Source of the DNA: Limisphaerales bacterium
GTDB lineage: Bacteria > Verrucomicrobiota > Verrucomicrobiia > Limisphaerales > JAKEEH01
DNA length: 36,329 bases
Reading direction: 5' to 3'
Assembly: GCA_022616725.1 (NCBI GenBank)
Contig: JAKEEH010000280.1
Location: 1 to 36,329 of the forward strand
A program made the position numbers and the translations under genes. Each line of letters starts with the position of its first letter. Position 1 is the stretch's first letter. Below, one piece after another: positions 5,597 through 18,441 of this stretch. A model generated the notes under the pieces. The model was given only the letters and a program-made list of their open reading frames with translations. It was not told where the DNA came from and searched no databases.

Positions 5597-7021
5597 TCAC
5601 GCCGATCCCGTGACCTCCTTCAAATCCGCGCGCACCGCTTCGTACGTCGTCGCGTACGCCAGCACTTCGGGATCCGGCTGCACCCCCCAATGTTCGCACG
5701 CCTGCCGGTAAACAGCCGGCCACCAGTTCCGATGCTGGGTCAAGCCTTCATCGCGCCAACTCCTCCAGCCCATCAGCACGCGCGACCAGCATTCGTCGCC
5801 ATATTTCACAGCCTGCTGCGTGTTCGGGAAATCCTTGAGATACCAATCACGCCCAATGCGCGCGTGCAGAACTTCATCCGCCCAATCGTAATCCTGAAAC
5901 AGTGCTGACAAGGCGTTGCCGGATTGCTGGCCGACTTCCCATTCAAACCGCTTGCCGTTCTTCGGCATCAAGCCTTGTTCGATGAAATACAGCACGGCAT
6001 GGCGCTCAATGGGTTTCAGTTGCGTGTTCAGGGCCAGCGACCACGTGAAATTCACCATCACGTTCTTCGGCCAATCAACGCCCAGTTGCGCAAACCCAAC
6101 CTCGCCCATCATCGCGTGGCGCGCTTCGTCCCAAAGCTGGCGGGTCATGTCGCGATAATAGCCCCATGGCTTGTCCGGTGTTTCCGTAATAATGCTGGCC
6201 ATCATCTCGGGCACATCGACTTCGCGGAGCCGTTTGTAGAACATCATCAGTGTTTTCGGTTGCGGCGGGTATTTCGGATCGTAAAGGAACACTTCCGCGT
6301 TGACACCCATGTTGTAGGGATCGGGGAAACGCTCGTCCCGCTTCGGCACTGGATCATACTTGTAAGGAGTCCTTGAAAACTGCCGACCGGTTTCTTTCTG
6401 CATGGGTGCGTCCGTGCCGTGCAAACCTCCCGCGCTAAGCAGGCAGTCGTCGAGTAATCGCAACCACGCGCTCAACTCCTGGCGCCGCTCCGGCGTGACG
6501 AGCCTTTCAATCGCCTGCCGCCCAAATGCCACCATGGCCGCTATCTCCAGCAGAGCGAAGCGGCAAACCCGCACCGATGGGGCGTCCGTGAGCAGGTTGG
6601 TATCGGCCGTGTGCTTCTGCAGTGCCGCTTCCAGCGTCGGCAGAGCTTTCTCATAAACGCCCAACAGCAGCTCTTCCGTCCCGGGTGCGCACAGGATCTC
6701 GTCAAATAAAATCTCCAAGGCCGGATGCGGCACTTGCTCCAGACCCAGCGGCGGCTCGCGCATCTCGCCAACCCGCTTCCGGAGGGCCGCCACATGCTCG
6801 GCGCAAAGATGGGCATGCAGACTGAAACCCATTTTCAATTCATAGATCGGCTCGGCCGTAATCCGCGCCGTGAAAGTCTGGTGCAGTCGCTTGAACGCGT
6901 AATGGTAGCGCTTGAGCCGCGCGACGCATTGCTCAACCGAGAGGCCGGGCCGCATCGCCTCTTCCATGGAACAAAGCCCTGCCAGCGGCGGCAGATCGCG
7001 ATAAGAACGGTATGTTTTCAT
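5597..7021 (-). CDS. ferritin-like-fold protein with DEARH motif
   Basis: The product is a 474-residue soluble protein with no signal peptide. Two helices carry ferritin-like metal-ligand patterns: YELKMGFSLHAHLCAEHV (Glu61, with Glu75/His76) and MTRQLWDEARHAMMGE (Glu299, His302, Glu307), so a di-iron or related carboxylate-bridged metal site is plausible. The region between (about 110-230) is helical, and the C-terminal half is rich in Trp and Tyr. I recognise it as an uncharacterised ferritin-like family found in Verrucomicrobia and relatives; the substrate is unknown. ATG at 7021 is the natural start (MKTYRSYRDLPPLAGLC). It is divergent from the haloperoxidase-like gene, and a palindrome lies 23 bp upstream of its start. 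Confidence 0.7.
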   Translation of the reverse strand: MKTYRSYRDLPPLAGLCSMEEAMRPGLSVEQCVARLKRYHYAFKRLHQTFTARITAEPIYELKMGFSLHAHLCAEHVAALRKRVGEMREPPLGLEQVPHPALEILFDEILCAPGTEELLLGVYEKALPTLEAALQKHTADTNLLTDAPSVRVCRFALLEIAAMVAFGRQAIERLVTPERRQELSAWLRLLDDCLLSAGGLHGTDAPMQKETGRQFSRTPYKYDPVPKRDERFPDPYNMGVNAEVFLYDPKYPPQPKTLMMFYKRLREVDVPEMMASIITETPDKPWGYYRDMTRQLWDEARHAMMGEVGFAQLGVDWPKNVMVNFTWSLALNTQLKPIERHAVLYFIEQGLMPKNGKRFEWEVGQQSGNALSALFQDYDWADEVLHARIGRDWYLKDFPNTQQAVKYGDECWSRVLMGWRSWRDEGLTQHRNWWPAVYRQACEHWGVQPDPEVLAYATTYEAVRADLKEVTGSA

Positions 7022-7043
7022 GGCGAAGCTTATATTGCACTGC

Positions 7044-7057
7044 TTTCGGGGCCGAAA
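7044..7057. promoter_or_regulatory. palindrome TTTCGG-GG-CCGAAA in the divergent spacer
   Basis: A perfect 6-bp inverted repeat with a 2-bp spacer lies 23 bp upstream of the ferritin-like gene start. A TATAAG string lies between it and the gene. This is a possible operator for that gene; the two-sided spacer also serves the haloperoxidase gene. Function is inferred from position only. Confidence 0.3.
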
Positions 7058-7262
7058 ACCATGGAAAAATCCCGTTGGAAACTGGGAGCCTTTGGGGTGG
7101 ACAGCGGATCAGCGTATTTGGCCCCGCAAAAATACCGACTCGCCACAATCCACTGCCTTTTCGCGCGATGAGTTGAATATATTCCTCGCTATTCACACCG
7201 ATTGGGCCTCCAGGGTGACGCAATGGGCGTCGCCCACGGCCATGTGTGGATTTGAAGTACCT

Positions 7263-8537
7263 ATGAAATCAGTAAATCGAATTATTGGAATTACGGCATT
7301 GGCGGTGGCCCTCTCAAGCAGGGCAGACGTGGTGACCGACTGGAACAACGTCGCGCTGGATGCCATCCGCGCCGGGCGCACCTCCCCTCCCCAGGCGTCG
7401 CGCCAGTTGGCGATCTTGCACACAGCAATTTACGATGCGGTAAACGGAATTACGCAGACGCACGAACCCTATCGCGTGCCCGGGAAGGCCTCGGGAGGAG
7501 CTTCTGTGGAGGCAGCGGTCCATGCCGCAGCCCACAGTGTGATGGTCAATTTGTATCCATCGATGACAGCAATGTTTGACGCCGCATACAATTCTGCAAC
7601 CGGGAACCTGCCGAACGGGCCGGCCAAATCCAAGGGCCTGGCCTGGGGCGCTCATGTCGCACAGGCGATTCTGGCTGATCGCGCCAATGATGGCTCAACA
7701 AATACGGTGCCTTACGCGCCCGGAACGAACCCGGGCGAGTGGAGGCCAACGATTTCCTTTGGCGGGGTGGTGCGGCCGCCACTGCTGCCGCAGTGGGGCA
7801 CTGTCAAATGTTTCGGAATCAAAGCGGGTTCGCAGTTTCGTCCCCCGACACCACCCGCTTTGACGACTCACCAATATGCGGACGAGGTCAACCAGGTGAA
7901 GAGTCTTGGTGAAACCAATAGCACAGCGCGCACCGCGGACCAGACGCAAATCGCTTACTTTTGGGCCAATGGCGCGGGCACCGCGACGCCGCCGGGGCAT
8001 TGGAACCAAATCGCGCAGATCGTCGCAGAGCAAGAGGGCAATACCCTGGCCGAAAATGCCCGCCTGTTCGCGCTGCTCAACATCGCCGAGGCCGACGCCG
8101 CTATCGTCTCGTGGGATTGCAAATACGCTTACAACTACTGGCGTCCGATCACGGCGATTCGCGAAGCCGATACCGATAATAATCCGCTGACGATTCAGGA
8201 TTCAACCTGGGCGCCCCTGCTCTTCACGCCGCCTTTTCCGGAATACACTTCGGGACACAGCACCTTCAGTGGCGCTGCGGCGGTCGTGCTGGCTATGTTT
8301 TATGGCACCGATGACATCCCGTTCACTGGAGCCTCAGACGATGTCCCCGGTGCGATGCGCTATTACACCAGCTTCAGCCAGGCGGCTGAAGAAAGCGGTG
8401 CCAGCCGTATTTACGCCGGCATTCATTTTTGGTCCGCCAATGTGCACGGTTTGGCGACCGGAGCGTCAGTGGGGGAATACGTGTCGGAACATCTGCTGCG
8501 CCCTCGGCGCGAGCGTTCGCAACGCGGCCAGCATTAA
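7263..8537 (+). CDS. secreted vanadium-dependent haloperoxidase / PAP2-like enzyme
   Basis: The product has 424 residues and a signal peptide (MKSVNRIIGITALAVALSSRA), so it is exported. The C-terminal domain has the vanadate or phosphate pocket of the vanadium haloperoxidase/PAP2 superfamily in order: WDCKYAYNYWRP (Lys287, Arg294), EYTSGHSTFSGA (Ser330, Gly331, His332) and SRIYAGIHF (Arg382, His388). The length fits the plain bacterial family of secreted haloperoxidase-like proteins. The reaction could be halide oxidation with peroxide or phosphate-ester hydrolysis; the sequence alone does not separate them. I start at ATG 7263 and not at the ORF-track start 7020, because only this gives a clean signal peptide. 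A GT2 gene follows after 18 bp, so it is probably the first gene of a three-gene operon. Confidence 0.85.
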   Translation: MKSVNRIIGITALAVALSSRADVVTDWNNVALDAIRAGRTSPPQASRQLAILHTAIYDAVNGITQTHEPYRVPGKASGGASVEAAVHAAAHSVMVNLYPSMTAMFDAAYNSATGNLPNGPAKSKGLAWGAHVAQAILADRANDGSTNTVPYAPGTNPGEWRPTISFGGVVRPPLLPQWGTVKCFGIKAGSQFRPPTPPALTTHQYADEVNQVKSLGETNSTARTADQTQIAYFWANGAGTATPPGHWNQIAQIVAEQEGNTLAENARLFALLNIAEADAAIVSWDCKYAYNYWRPITAIREADTDNNPLTIQDSTWAPLLFTPPFPEYTSGHSTFSGAAAVVLAMFYGTDDIPFTGASDDVPGAMRYYTSFSQAAEESGASRIYAGIHFWSANVHGLATGASVGEYVSEHLLRPRRERSQRGQH

Positions 8538-14297: not shown

Positions 14298-14332
14298 TTC
14301 AACGATTCAACGATTCAACGATTCAACGATTC
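14298..14332. repeat. octamer array TTCAACGA x4
   Basis: Four exact copies of TTCAACGA plus a partial copy. A related array lies at 15220-15264 in the same orientation, near the other end of the spacer. Confidence 0.9.
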
Positions 14333-14440
14333 CGCCGTAACTATCTTATTACGAGCCACTTACAACTCGCCCCGGCCCGGCTATCATCCCTCTTCGCGGA
14401 AGCGCTCCAAATGTTGTCAACCAGTATTTCAAACTTTTTT

Positions 14441-14470
14441 GGCGCATACTGGCGCATACTGGCGGATACT
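14441..14470. repeat. 10-bp triple repeat GGCGCATACT
   Basis: Two exact copies of GGCGCATACT are followed by GGCGGATACT. The period is exactly 10 bp. Confidence 0.95.
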
Positions 14471-14578
14471 GTCACGAATTGGCATGTTAAACTGCATTCC
14501 CTCACCCGAGCCGCCAAAAACCCGTGGTATAATATAGGCGTGAAAAATAGAAGCATATTATATATAACGTGGGAGAGC

Positions 14579-14608
14579 AAAAGTGGACAAAAGTGGACAT
14601 TTCTGGAC
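14579..14608. repeat. 10-bp triple repeat AAAAGTGGAC
   Basis: Two exact copies of AAAAGTGGAC are followed by a degenerate third copy, ATTTCTGGAC. The A-tracts are spaced 10 bp apart. Confidence 0.95.
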
Positions 14609-14643
14609 GGAAACAGGGGAGGGGTGTCCAGAAAACCAGGACA

Positions 14644-14673
14644 AAAAGTGATGAAAAGTGATGAAAACTGATG
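14644..14673. repeat. 10-bp triple repeat AAAAGTGATG
   Basis: Two exact copies of AAAAGTGATG are followed by AAAACTGATG. The design matches the array at 14579, with a different 3' half of the unit. Confidence 0.95.
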
Positions 14674-14704
14674 GCTTTTCCAAGGGGTGCCAGCGCCTCA
14701 CCAG

Positions 14705-14734
14705 AAAACTGACCAAAACTGACCAGAATTGACC
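14705..14734. repeat. 10-bp triple repeat AAAACTGACC
   Basis: Two exact copies of AAAACTGACC are followed by AGAATTGACC. This is the third array with the AAAA-S-TG pattern and a 10-bp period. Confidence 0.95.
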
Positions 14735-14856
14735 GAAAATGCCAGGGACGCTGCAAAGCCGTTAGCCAGCCGAACGATGAATCGTCCCATTTTCCAGATC
14801 TATTCACCAATCACCACTCATAATTCACTCGCTGTGCGGGGTGTGTCACTTCCGCC

Positions 14857-14880: not shown

Positions 14881-15049
14881 TCCTCCAATCGTCTCAACTT
14901 TGCGCCTTCGCGCCTTTGCTGTTTCAACCAGAAAATTGGACTTTTTGGACTTGGACTCGCTCCGATTCACCGCTTTTACGCACAAATCCGCACACTTTTT
15001 TTGGACCCGTCCGATTTTCAAGTCACTCGTCCTTACCCACTCGAGAAAG

Positions 15050-15084
15050 TTCACCGTTTCTTCACCATTTCTTCACCAATTTTC
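15050..15084. repeat. 11-bp triple repeat TTCACCGTTTC
   Basis: TTCACCGTTTC, TTCACCATTTC and TTCACCAATTTTC run head to tail, with an 11-bp period and a drifted last copy. Confidence 0.9.
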
Positions 15085-15219
15085 AGGGGTCCCGTGCGGA
15101 AAACCCAATGAAATCAGCCCTTTTATGAAACTCACCCCCGAAATGGTGAAATTTTTGCGTGGAATGATCCACCCCTTCCACGCTCAGAAGGCCCGAAAAT
15201 TGGAGGTCGGCATTCCTCC

Positions 15220-15264
15220 GATTCAACGGATTCAACGATTTAACGATTCAACGATTTAATTCAA
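15220..15264. repeat. degenerate ATTCAACG octamer array
   Basis: ATTCAACG, G, ATTCAACG, ATTTAACG and ATTCAACG are followed by a degraded copy. It is the partner of the array at 14298-14332, in the same orientation, about 50 bp upstream of the cytochrome gene start. Confidence 0.85.
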
Positions 15265-15315: not shown

Positions 15316-18300
15316 ATGAACCTTCGTCATAGCCTCTCTGCCCTGCTGCTGGCCGCAGTGGCGGCGTTCCCGGCCGAGTTCAAGTTCGGCGGCCAGACGA
15401 TCACCCTCCCGGGCGGCTTTGAAATCGAGTTGGTCGCGGGGCCGCCCCTGGTGGACCGGCCTATCGTCGCGGACTTCGACGACCAGGGGCGCCTTTACGT
15501 CGCCGACTCCGCCGGCGTGAATGATAAGCCCGAAAAGCAGCTCCAGGATCGGCCTCATCGCATCGTTCGCCTCGAGGACACGGACGGCGACGGCAAATTC
15601 GACAAACAAACCGTCTTTGCCGACAAAATGATGTTTCCCGAAGGGCTGCTTTGGTTCGATGGCGCGGTCTATTGCGGCGCGCCGCCTTCGGTTTGGAAAC
15701 TTGAGGACACCGACGGCGACGGCGTCGCCGACAAGCGCGAGGAATGGTTCAAAGGCGGCGTGCTCACCGGCTGTGCCAACGACGTTCACGGCCCCTACCT
15801 CGGCCCTGACGGTTGGATTTACTGGACCAAAGGCGCCTTCGCCAAAATGAACATCGAACGCCCGGGACGTCCTCCCATCCGCGACCGGGCGGCGCACATC
15901 TTCCGCGCCCGGCCCGACGGCACGGACCTCGAAGTGATGATGAGCGGCGGCATGGACAACCCCGTCGAAGTGGCGTTTTCACCCGATGGCGAACCCTTTT
16001 TCACGACCACCTTTTACGTCAACCCCGAGGCTGGCCGGCGCGACGCCATCGTCCATCTCATTTACGGCGGCGCTTACCCCAAGGTGCATGACGTCCTTGA
16101 CGATATCCCGCGCACGGGTGACCTGCTGCCCCCCCTGACGCACCTTGGTCCCGCCGTCCCGAGCGGCCTTGCCATGTACCAGTCCCCCACGTTTGGCGCC
16201 GATTTCCATCTCAACCTCTTCTCGACTCAGTTCAACCTGCACAAGGTGCAGCGCCACGCCCTGGAACCGTTCGGCGCCAGCTTCCGGTCCCGCGACATCG
16301 ACTTTCTGGTGTCCGACAGCGCCGACTTTCACCCCACCGACGTGCTCGAAGACGCCGACGGCACGCTCCTCGTGCTCGATACCGGCGGCTGGTATAAACT
16401 CTGTTGCCCAACCTCTCAACTGGCCAAGCCCGACGTCCTCGGCGCGATCTATCGGATTCGTCGCACGTTTATCACGCCCGTGGAAGATCCGCGCGGCCTG
16501 AAGATCGACTGGAAAGGCTCCGCGCCCGCGCGGCTTACCCGTCTTCTCGACGACGAACGGCCCGCAGTCCGCCAGCGGGCGATCGGGGAACTCTCTAAAC
16601 GAACTGACGCCGCCATTGACCCGCTGGCTGCAAGCCTGCGGAGTGGCACAGTCGAACGCCGTCGCAATGCCCTGTGGGCGTTGACGCGCATCCAGTCTCC
16701 AAAAGCTCGCGAAGTTGTGCGCCGCGCCTTTTCCGACAGCGATGCCGGCGTCCGGAAAGTCGCAATCTACTCCGCCGGGTTACACCGCGACCGCGAAGCG
16801 CTTTCACAATTGACCCAATTCCTGACTTCTGGCTCTGCCCACCTCCGCCGCTGCGCCGCGACTGCCCTCGGCCGTTTGGAGGCTCCGGAAGCCGTGCCGG
16901 CCCTGCTCGCCGCCGCGCCCGGTCCCAGCGACCGCATCCTCGAACATTCGATCATTTTTGCGCTCATGGAAATTGCCAATCCGGACGCGCTGCGAGCCGG
17001 CCTGACGGCTCGCAACCCATTCACCAAGCGCGCCGCCCTCATCGCGCTGGATCAAATGAATCTTGTAACCCCCGACCTGCGGGCGGAGCCTCGGTGGAAA
17101 GAAGAAGCCAACTCGAGGGGGCTGACTGTCTCCGATGTCATTCCACACCTCTCGTCCAGCGACGAACTGCTCCGCCAAACCAGCCGCTGGATCGCAGGAC
17201 ATCACCCCGACTGGGGCGGAGAACTCAGCGGCATGTTCAGGAACCGTCTGCTCGAATCGACCGCTGCCGAGCAAGAGGAACTCCAGCGTCAGCTCGCTGA
17301 ATTTGGGCGCGATTCCGCTATACAAGCCTTGCTGGCCGAATCGGCTTCCTCCACCAATCGGCAAACACGGCTTGTCGCCCTGGGCGCTATGACTCGCGCC
17401 CGGCTTCGCGAGGCCCCGAAAAACTGGATTCGTCCATTGGCAAAATGCCTGACTTCCGGCGACGATCAGATCGCCGCCCAGGCGGTGGCAGCCGTCCGCG
17501 CTCTCTCAGGCGCCAAAGGCGGGTTGACAAACCTGCACGAGCAGTTGCTTGAGGTCGCGCGCGATACCAGGCGCTCAGATGAAGTGCGCCTCGATGCGCT
17601 TGCGGCGATGCAGGGCGCGCTCCCTTTGGACGACGAGCTTTTCGACTTTCTGCGCCGCGCTGTCGATTCATCACGTTCGCCGGTTCAGCGGACCGCTGCC
17701 GCCAGTGTCCTGGGCCGGGCCCGGCTTTCCGAAGAGCAATTAGATAAATTGATTGACACATTTCCCACCGTCGGTCCGCTCGAACTCTCCCGCCTCATCG
17801 GCGCCTTCGAGAACGCCACGGACGAAGCGCTCGGTCTGAAGCTCGTCGCCGCGCTGAAGACTTCGCCCGGCCTCAAAGGTCTTCGCGCCGATACTCTCAA
17901 GCCGCGTCTCGCCAAATTCCCGGAATCAGTCCAGCGGGAGGGCGAAGTTCTACTGCGCTTGCTGAACGTGGACCTCGCCCAACAGAAAGCGCGCCTTGAC
18001 GAACTCCAATCCAGCTTGACCGGCGGTGATCATCGCCGCGGTCAATTAATTTTTAACGGCACGCGCGCTGCCTGTGCCACCTGCCATGCCATTGGCTACC
18101 TCGGCGGCCAGCTCGGTCCCGACCTCACCCGCATCGGCAGCGTCCGCACCGAACGCGACCTGCTGGAATCGCTCATTTACCCGAGTGCCAGCTTTGCCCG
18201 CGCCTACGAACCGATGATCGTCGAGACCCGCGACGGCGACGAACACTCCGGTATCATCAAACGCGAAACCGCAGAAACCATCCAGCTCATCACCGGCCCC

Positions 18301-18441
18301 GGCGCCGAGCAGACTGTCGCTCGCTCCGACGTGGCCGCGATGCGGCCGGGCACCCTCTCGGTCATGCCCGAGGGCCTCGAACAACAACTCACCCGCCAGG
18401 AACTGGCCGACCTCGTCGCGTTCCTCAAATCGCTGAAGTAA
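15316..18441 (+). CDS. secreted propeller-HEAT-cytochrome c fusion (PVC type)
   Basis: The product is a 1041-residue exported protein (signal MNLRHSLSALLLAAVAAFPA). Residues 25-390 form a six-bladed-propeller-like dehydrogenase domain (membrane-bound dehydrogenase type of Planctomycetes/Verrucomicrobia) with two DTDGDGKFD/DTDGDGVAD calcium-like loops. Residues 400-890 are HEAT-type helical repeats (RRNALWALTRIQSPKAREVV and similar). The C-terminal 135 residues are a heme-binding domain with CATCH at 920-924 and a likely distal Met at about 1017 (SVMPEGL). The role is probably periplasmic oxidation of a sugar or alcohol, passing electrons to the c-type heme. The substrate is unknown and quinone or PQQ use is not shown. 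ATG 15316 gives the signal peptide. It has no obvious co-transcribed partner upstream. Confidence 0.9.
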   Translation: MNLRHSLSALLLAAVAAFPAEFKFGGQTITLPGGFEIELVAGPPLVDRPIVADFDDQGRLYVADSAGVNDKPEKQLQDRPHRIVRLEDTDGDGKFDKQTVFADKMMFPEGLLWFDGAVYCGAPPSVWKLEDTDGDGVADKREEWFKGGVLTGCANDVHGPYLGPDGWIYWTKGAFAKMNIERPGRPPIRDRAAHIFRARPDGTDLEVMMSGGMDNPVEVAFSPDGEPFFTTTFYVNPEAGRRDAIVHLIYGGAYPKVHDVLDDIPRTGDLLPPLTHLGPAVPSGLAMYQSPTFGADFHLNLFSTQFNLHKVQRHALEPFGASFRSRDIDFLVSDSADFHPTDVLEDADGTLLVLDTGGWYKLCCPTSQLAKPDVLGAIYRIRRTFITPVEDPRGLKIDWKGSAPARLTRLLDDERPAVRQRAIGELSKRTDAAIDPLAASLRSGTVERRRNALWALTRIQSPKAREVVRRAFSDSDAGVRKVAIYSAGLHRDREALSQLTQFLTSGSAHLRRCAATALGRLEAPEAVPALLAAAPGPSDRILEHSIIFALMEIANPDALRAGLTARNPFTKRAALIALDQMNLVTPDLRAEPRWKEEANSRGLTVSDVIPHLSSSDELLRQTSRWIAGHHPDWGGELSGMFRNRLLESTAAEQEELQRQLAEFGRDSAIQALLAESASSTNRQTRLVALGAMTRARLREAPKNWIRPLAKCLTSGDDQIAAQAVAAVRALSGAKGGLTNLHEQLLEVARDTRRSDEVRLDALAAMQGALPLDDELFDFLRRAVDSSRSPVQRTAAASVLGRARLSEEQLDKLIDTFPTVGPLELSRLIGAFENATDEALGLKLVAALKTSPGLKGLRADTLKPRLAKFPESVQREGEVLLRLLNVDLAQQKARLDELQSSLTGGDHRRGQLIFNGTRAACATCHAIGYLGGQLGPDLTRIGSVRTERDLLESLIYPSASFARAYEPMIVETRDGDEHSGIIKRETAETIQLITGPGAEQTVARSDVAAMRPGTLSVMPEGLEQQLTRQELADLVAFLKSLK

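Follow-up and report, generated by a model that had tools for sequence, protein, structure and literature searches.

The four arrays of 10-bp direct repeats at 14441-14734 of the window (the whole 36,329-nucleotide stretch of Limisphaerales DNA that was analysed) are probably iterons, i.e., candidate sites of an oligomeric helix-turn-helix (HTH) protein which would set one HTH on each turn of bent DNA. We reached this reading statistically, from the arrays themselves, their position, orientation and order, and a link between repeat word and recognition helix. The modules that contain the arrays appear to stem from a family of small HTH/coiled-coil proteins that lacks any named family.

Arrays in the window

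All four 10-bp triple-repeat arrays claimed in a preliminary description of this DNA are present:

14441-14470, (+): array 1, GGCGCATACT twice, then GGCGGATACT; part of module A
14579-14608, (+): array 2, AAAAGTGGAC twice, then ATTTCTGGAC; part of module B
14644-14673, (+): array 3, AAAAGTGATG twice, then AAAACTGATG; part of module C
14705-14734, (+): array 4, AAAACTGACC twice, then AGAATTGACC; part of module D

They had been said to have exactly three units each, which is approximately right: array 1 has five, as TGTCACGAAT and TGGCATGTTA continue the 10-bp pitch and the degenerate continuation reaches 14489, while array 4 continues into a fourth unit, GAAAATGCCA, which is degenerate. The form AAAA-S-TG-NNN, described for three arrays, is true of arrays 2-4 only. 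The proposed A-tract phasing is exceptional in array 3, where 0.03% of 60-bp windows in the 36-kb window score higher, and in array 4 (0.3%); it is moderate in array 2 (2.6%) and unconvincing in array 1 (4.9%), where repeated A-tracts are absent.

Compared with shuffled or reversed-pattern controls, arrays far exceed chance in both the window and the genome, and strict period-10 arrays are intergenic only in the own-genome contigs analysed. Allowing two mismatches, AAAASTGNNNAAAASTG occurs 7 times in the window versus 0.6 times in shuffles (maximum 3); allowing one mismatch, it occurs at 71 places in the whole genome versus 8 for the reversed pattern. The genome-wide statistics combine such pattern searches with about 0.93 Mb of own-genome DNA. 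A set of own-genome contigs, some of them picked for holding arrays, gave 25 strict period-10 arrays in 130 kb of intergenic DNA, with none in 667 kb of coding DNA and none in shuffles. An unbiased 62-kb intergenic sample, searched with looser thresholds, gave five period-11 arrays (none shuffled, none in 312 kb of coding DNA) and a weak enrichment of period 10 (4 versus 1.3 shuffled, with 2 in coding DNA), the latter because arrays cluster at a limited number of sites.

Modules and their parts

Each array belongs to a larger module, and the region extends from 8-bp repeats upstream of module A to a co-oriented gene:

14298-14332, (+): 8-bp TTCAACGA repeats; similar repeats directly precede the ATG of several HTH genes
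14401-14545, (+): module A, with TTGTCAACC, a T-tract, five 10-bp TGGCRCRTAYT-like units (14440-14489), an extended -10 and a relic start
14525-14533, (+): extended -10 of module A, TGGTATAAT
14540, (+): relic start codon of module A, GTGAAAAATAG
14577-14636, (+): module B, with array 2 and its TGGAC words (14579-14608), a G-rich stretch and an inverted TGTCCA at 14625-14630
14644-14696, (+): module C, with array 3 and its TGATG words, then GGCTTTTCCARGGG
14705-14750, (+): module D, with array 4 and its TGACC words, then GAAAATGCCAGGG
14929-15019, (+): module E, with direct and inverted TTGGACT words flanking a conserved core
15040-15160, (+): module F, with three TTCACC units of 11 bp (from 15050) and GGTGAA in inverted orientation at 15145-15150
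15219-15259, (+): second block of 8-bp CGATTCAA repeats, before the downstream gene
15316-18441, (+): downstream gene, DUF7133 with HEAT repeats and cytochrome c, co-oriented with the modules

Elsewhere in the window, a 20-bp unit, CGACCCCCCGGACACAGCGA, is repeated perfectly 5.8 times at the contig start (1-117), and the gene at 7020-8537 encodes a PAP2 domain and weakly resembles vanadium chloroperoxidase.

Module A is the predicted promoter of an HTH-gene unit, here standing without its gene. It precedes an intact HTH-protein ORF in contig C574 and, as a variant, the HTH genes of C382 and C295. Array 3 (GATG) is the array of the C311 HTH gene (C311:3831-4232), where it overlaps the stop codon.

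Sister copies of module E have GAGACT at the same places as the TTGGACT words. At two such loci (L075 and L086), GGACT has become GAGACT jointly at the direct and inverted positions with the core kept, as if the words had been exchanged in concert.

Several modules have an inverted copy of their word, so the direct words and this one copy could instead form alternative hairpins in a leader transcript; in some B copies, though not all, a change from TGGAC to CGGAC is matched by one from TCCA to TCCGG. We regard such RNA-level elements as unlikely, as no inverted copy is evident in module C or D, and the one-helical-turn phasing and the link to the HTH helix point to DNA. The single Rfam match in the whole window is a tRNA.

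Dispersal, strand and order

Searching the own genome with 14400-14780 gives 65 DNA matches, nearly all partial. Modules A, B, C, D, E and F each recur separately and with variable spacing, and together they form an intergenic dispersed family of 64 mapped clusters, which we call mosaics. Many mosaics lie at contig ends, as would be expected of repeats. The core of module A could be aligned in 29 copies from own-genome DNA, and with up to two mismatches it occurs at 39 places genome-wide versus 1 for the reversed control. Module B has 28 listed copies, while module D occurs within two mismatches at 16 places in the own genome and nowhere in 96 relatives.

The preliminary description took the four arrays to be of independent origin, each with a third unit that had drifted. 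This is not supported at 14441-14734: modules B and D keep their third unit in their other copies, so the arrays were copied as finished modules.

The arrangement of the mosaics is far from random. None of the 64 is mixed in strand, module A comes first wherever it is present, and module order agrees in 145 of 160 pairs, against at most 130 in permutations. The downstream gene is co-oriented with the mosaic in 40 of 50 cases and opposite in 10 (p = 2e-5). All this could be read as a cis-regulatory leader only, i.e., a selected multi-operator region that spread as upstream regions were duplicated, without mobility. The leading promoter A and the co-oriented genes speak for that reading, as does the conservation of module B, which is higher in the words (0.76) than in the spacers (0.63). 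However, module D matches in 43/43 bp at two further sites, which exceeds expectation for operators alone, and the downstream genes are diverse. We rate the leader-only account as possible and somewhat doubtful.

Other sites record how mosaics may have arisen. In C481 and C358, 8-bp repeats are fused straight to iterons at the expected position of the ORF, and the HTH genes of C495 and C32 are truncated; these fusions and truncations suggest that mosaics are gene-less derivatives of HTH-gene units. Junctions of B and D lacking C or the GAAT module are also seen.

Such remnants could also be left by a selfish or decaying mobile unit (MITE-like): HTH cassettes would have spread, lost their ORF and left their ends, with the HTH protein binding those ends to aid an enzyme that moves them, and with incidental effects on neighbouring genes. 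Short, near-identical modules with abrupt borders at several sites fit this history, as does a second expansion, of 31 GGTAAA arrays, in a relative (G266). Against it, the HTH proteins have no catalytic domain, and strict co-orientation with a fixed order is unusual under free insertion. Among 167 module copies, direct repeats resembling target-site duplications were not above swapped-flank controls, although the borders are approximate and a weak signal could escape. One candidate duplication, the 9-bp CCAGAAAAC flanking module C, was rejected, as repeats of that length were equally frequent in the control. We rate a mobile unit, like the leader-only account, as possible and somewhat doubtful.

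An HTH protein family with arrays at its stop codons

The C574 ORF has about 16 relatives or relics in its own genome, making 17 HTH genes or relics. The complete layout is a promoter, 8-bp YTYAACNN repeats, a coding start of ATGCAC..., and an HTH followed by a coiled coil; in many such genes there is then a 10/11-bp triple array over or just past the stop codon. An automatic search found a significant period-10/11 array at the 3' end of 30 HTH genes (20 non-redundant), while about half of the HTH genes examined, including Lysinibacillus L277, had no significant array of this period near the stop. No HTH gene matching the window words TGGAC and TGACC was found. The pairing of C574 with TGATAC was weakened by the automatic finder, which put another array (TTGAAAG) at the C574 stop; TGATAC lies only further downstream.

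An AF2 monomer model of the C311 protein has an HTH and two long helices (mean pLDDT 83). Pfam and NCBIfam searches of the HTH proteins gave HTH-type matches only and no catalytic domain, and the Pfam scans showed no replication initiator (Rep) or Par domain.

In 22 of 66 loci elsewhere, a second ORF of about 220-280 aa is conserved on the same strand, 3' of the HTH gene and array (e.g., L261:1168-1695, L264:825-1352 and 20 more, some genomes being represented by two loci). Pfam gave no significant match for this ORF, and the own genome has no convincing copy of it.

Recognition helix and repeat word

Going by the loci compared, repeat words seem to differ from one protein type to the next: GATG, GAAC, GATAC and CGAAC in the own genome, GGTAAA in relatives and AAGACC in a Bacillus. 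Across the 20 non-redundant gene/array pairs, helix similarity and word similarity have a correlation of 0.64. In partial Mantel tests on these pairs, the helix-word value given the coiled coil is 0.47 (reached in none of 5000 permutations), a test that removes shared ancestry incompletely, and the coil-word value given the helix is 0.08 (p = 0.20). In these data, the recognition helix is thus predictive of the word, and the coiled coil is not once the helix has been accounted for. The own-genome C204 and C133 proteins have the SKPTLI helix and GGTAAA (TTTACC) word common to relatives in other families of the order.

The preliminary description argued for a repeated process or a selected architecture with differing words and proposed looking for a protein that binds the arrays. 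The selected architecture finds support in these data, as does the avoidance of coding DNA, and the HTH/coiled-coil family is a candidate for the protein by virtue of the statistical helix-word link.

Distribution in other genomes

Of 293 genomes of the order, 31 have the HTH family, the own genome among them. A phylum sample of 338 genomes contained it in one sampled genome outside the order, and it is also found in a few Firmicutes; named records with the family are mostly Verrucomicrobia subdivision 3/Limisphaerales MAGs. Searches of 50,697 phage records with two family members gave no homologue. Arrays in relatives again have units of 10 or 11 bp, mostly GGTAAA, and GGTAAA arrays occur in 11/31 genomes with the HTH family versus 5/262 without it (Fisher p = 9e-9). 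The arrays of G266 constitute a second dispersal, carrying the word of that genome's own protein. They form dispersed intergenic mosaics (L305-L312, L315), with phased CGGTAAAAAT and TGACATTTTA/TGACAAAATA-like arrays.

The layout extends beyond the order. The HTH gene of Bacillus sp. FJAT-44742 (L276:2477-2930) has a 3 x 11-bp array at its stop codon, and G332, of the same phylum as the window, has the same layout with 2 x 11 bp. No array was found near three Firmicute plasmid homologues. The L276 array is followed by a terminator-like hairpin, and the adjoining ORFs resemble DnaD-/DnaC-type replication genes by eye.

The presence of arrays in other lineages, at stop codons within a single gene family, is hard to reconcile with replication-slippage microrepeats that have no protein partner. 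Short 7- and 8-bp repeats, which slippage might produce, are also common in these intergenic regions, but periods above 9 bp are 10 and 11 and rarely 12-16, and the words follow the HTH types, a link which already disfavours slippage. We therefore consider slippage very improbable.

Proposed mechanism and significance

On the iteron reading, each helical turn would present a single word of 4-6 bp to one HTH, and spacers rich in A/T would keep the DNA bent so that the oligomer could lie along or around it. We infer this arrangement from the C311 model, the ring proposed for phage small terminases (see below) and the phased A-tracts of arrays 3 and 4. The native unit would consist of promoter A, 8-bp repeats, the HTH gene, the array at its stop and a G-rich stretch, frequently accompanied by an inverted word. 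The window would then hold a gene-less derivative in which promoter A leads a co-directional stack of 3' ends from several different units, placed before the DUF7133/cytochrome c gene. Occupied sites in the stack may regulate transcription from promoter A into that gene. Such regulation is plausible and is favoured by the orientation and the promoter, while the near-identical dispersed copies favour recent copying.

We tentatively raise the possibility of an undescribed class of element, in which a compact gene encodes an oligomeric HTH protein and has its own phased iterons at the stop codon. Helix and word would diversify together, and the element would seed chromosomes with gene-less directional stacks, rewiring how neighbouring genes are controlled. 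Arrays next to their genes, in which the word goes with the protein type, are a natural data set, giving a recognition helix and its probable target from one locus, and therefore make an HTH recognition code and protein/site co-evolution directly testable. If binding is confirmed, a large class of Limisphaerales intergenic repeats will have a named partner, and there will be a way for many genes to fall under shared control.

Comparison with known systems

Phage small terminases (TerS) have been proposed to form a ring whose HTHs are spaced by about one turn and which selects bent DNA (PMC4737164), though how TerS engages DNA is contested (PMC9611059), and the SPP1 small terminase has direct repeats at its own gene (PMC4737164, PMC9611059). 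TerS is a small protein with an N-terminal HTH and a helical oligomerization core, a layout also seen in the AF2 monomer model, where the long helices would be the putative oligomerization part. The top PDB matches of a Foldseek search with the C311 model include phBC6A51 and Sf6 TerS, all non-significant (E 0.6-1), and no small-terminase profile was matched (PHROGs with one member, Pfam with ten). Read by eye, the downstream neighbours of the HTH genes in Verrucomicrobia are chromosomal genes, with no large terminase or phage genes noticed, and dozens of cognate-like sites are scattered through intergenic DNA.

REP/REPIN sequences and RAYTs combine one gene family with many dispersed, gene-less intergenic copies (PMC3116915). 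The HTH family shares this pattern, but no HUH/Y1 transposase domain was matched in its proteins (Pfam, NCBIfam), and phased direct repeats take the place of REP palindromes.

The iterons of plasmid replication and partition are short direct repeats at about one helical turn, adjoining the gene for the presumed binding protein, and the arrays resemble them in both respects. The differences are that no Rep/Par domain was found in the protein, that the arrays lie 3' in the gene unit and that they are dispersed over the chromosome. IS3/IS630 transposases have an N-terminal HTH (OrfA-like) with weak similarity, below curated cut-offs, but here there is no catalytic subunit, and target duplications are not in excess of controls.

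By the profile, domain and target-duplication searches above, the HTH proteins do not qualify as terminase small subunits, RAYTs, insertion sequences or plasmid initiators, and we found no description of this system in the open-access literature, to which the search was confined. By analogy, we suggest that the system may work like a TerS/pac or iteron system while being a member of neither.
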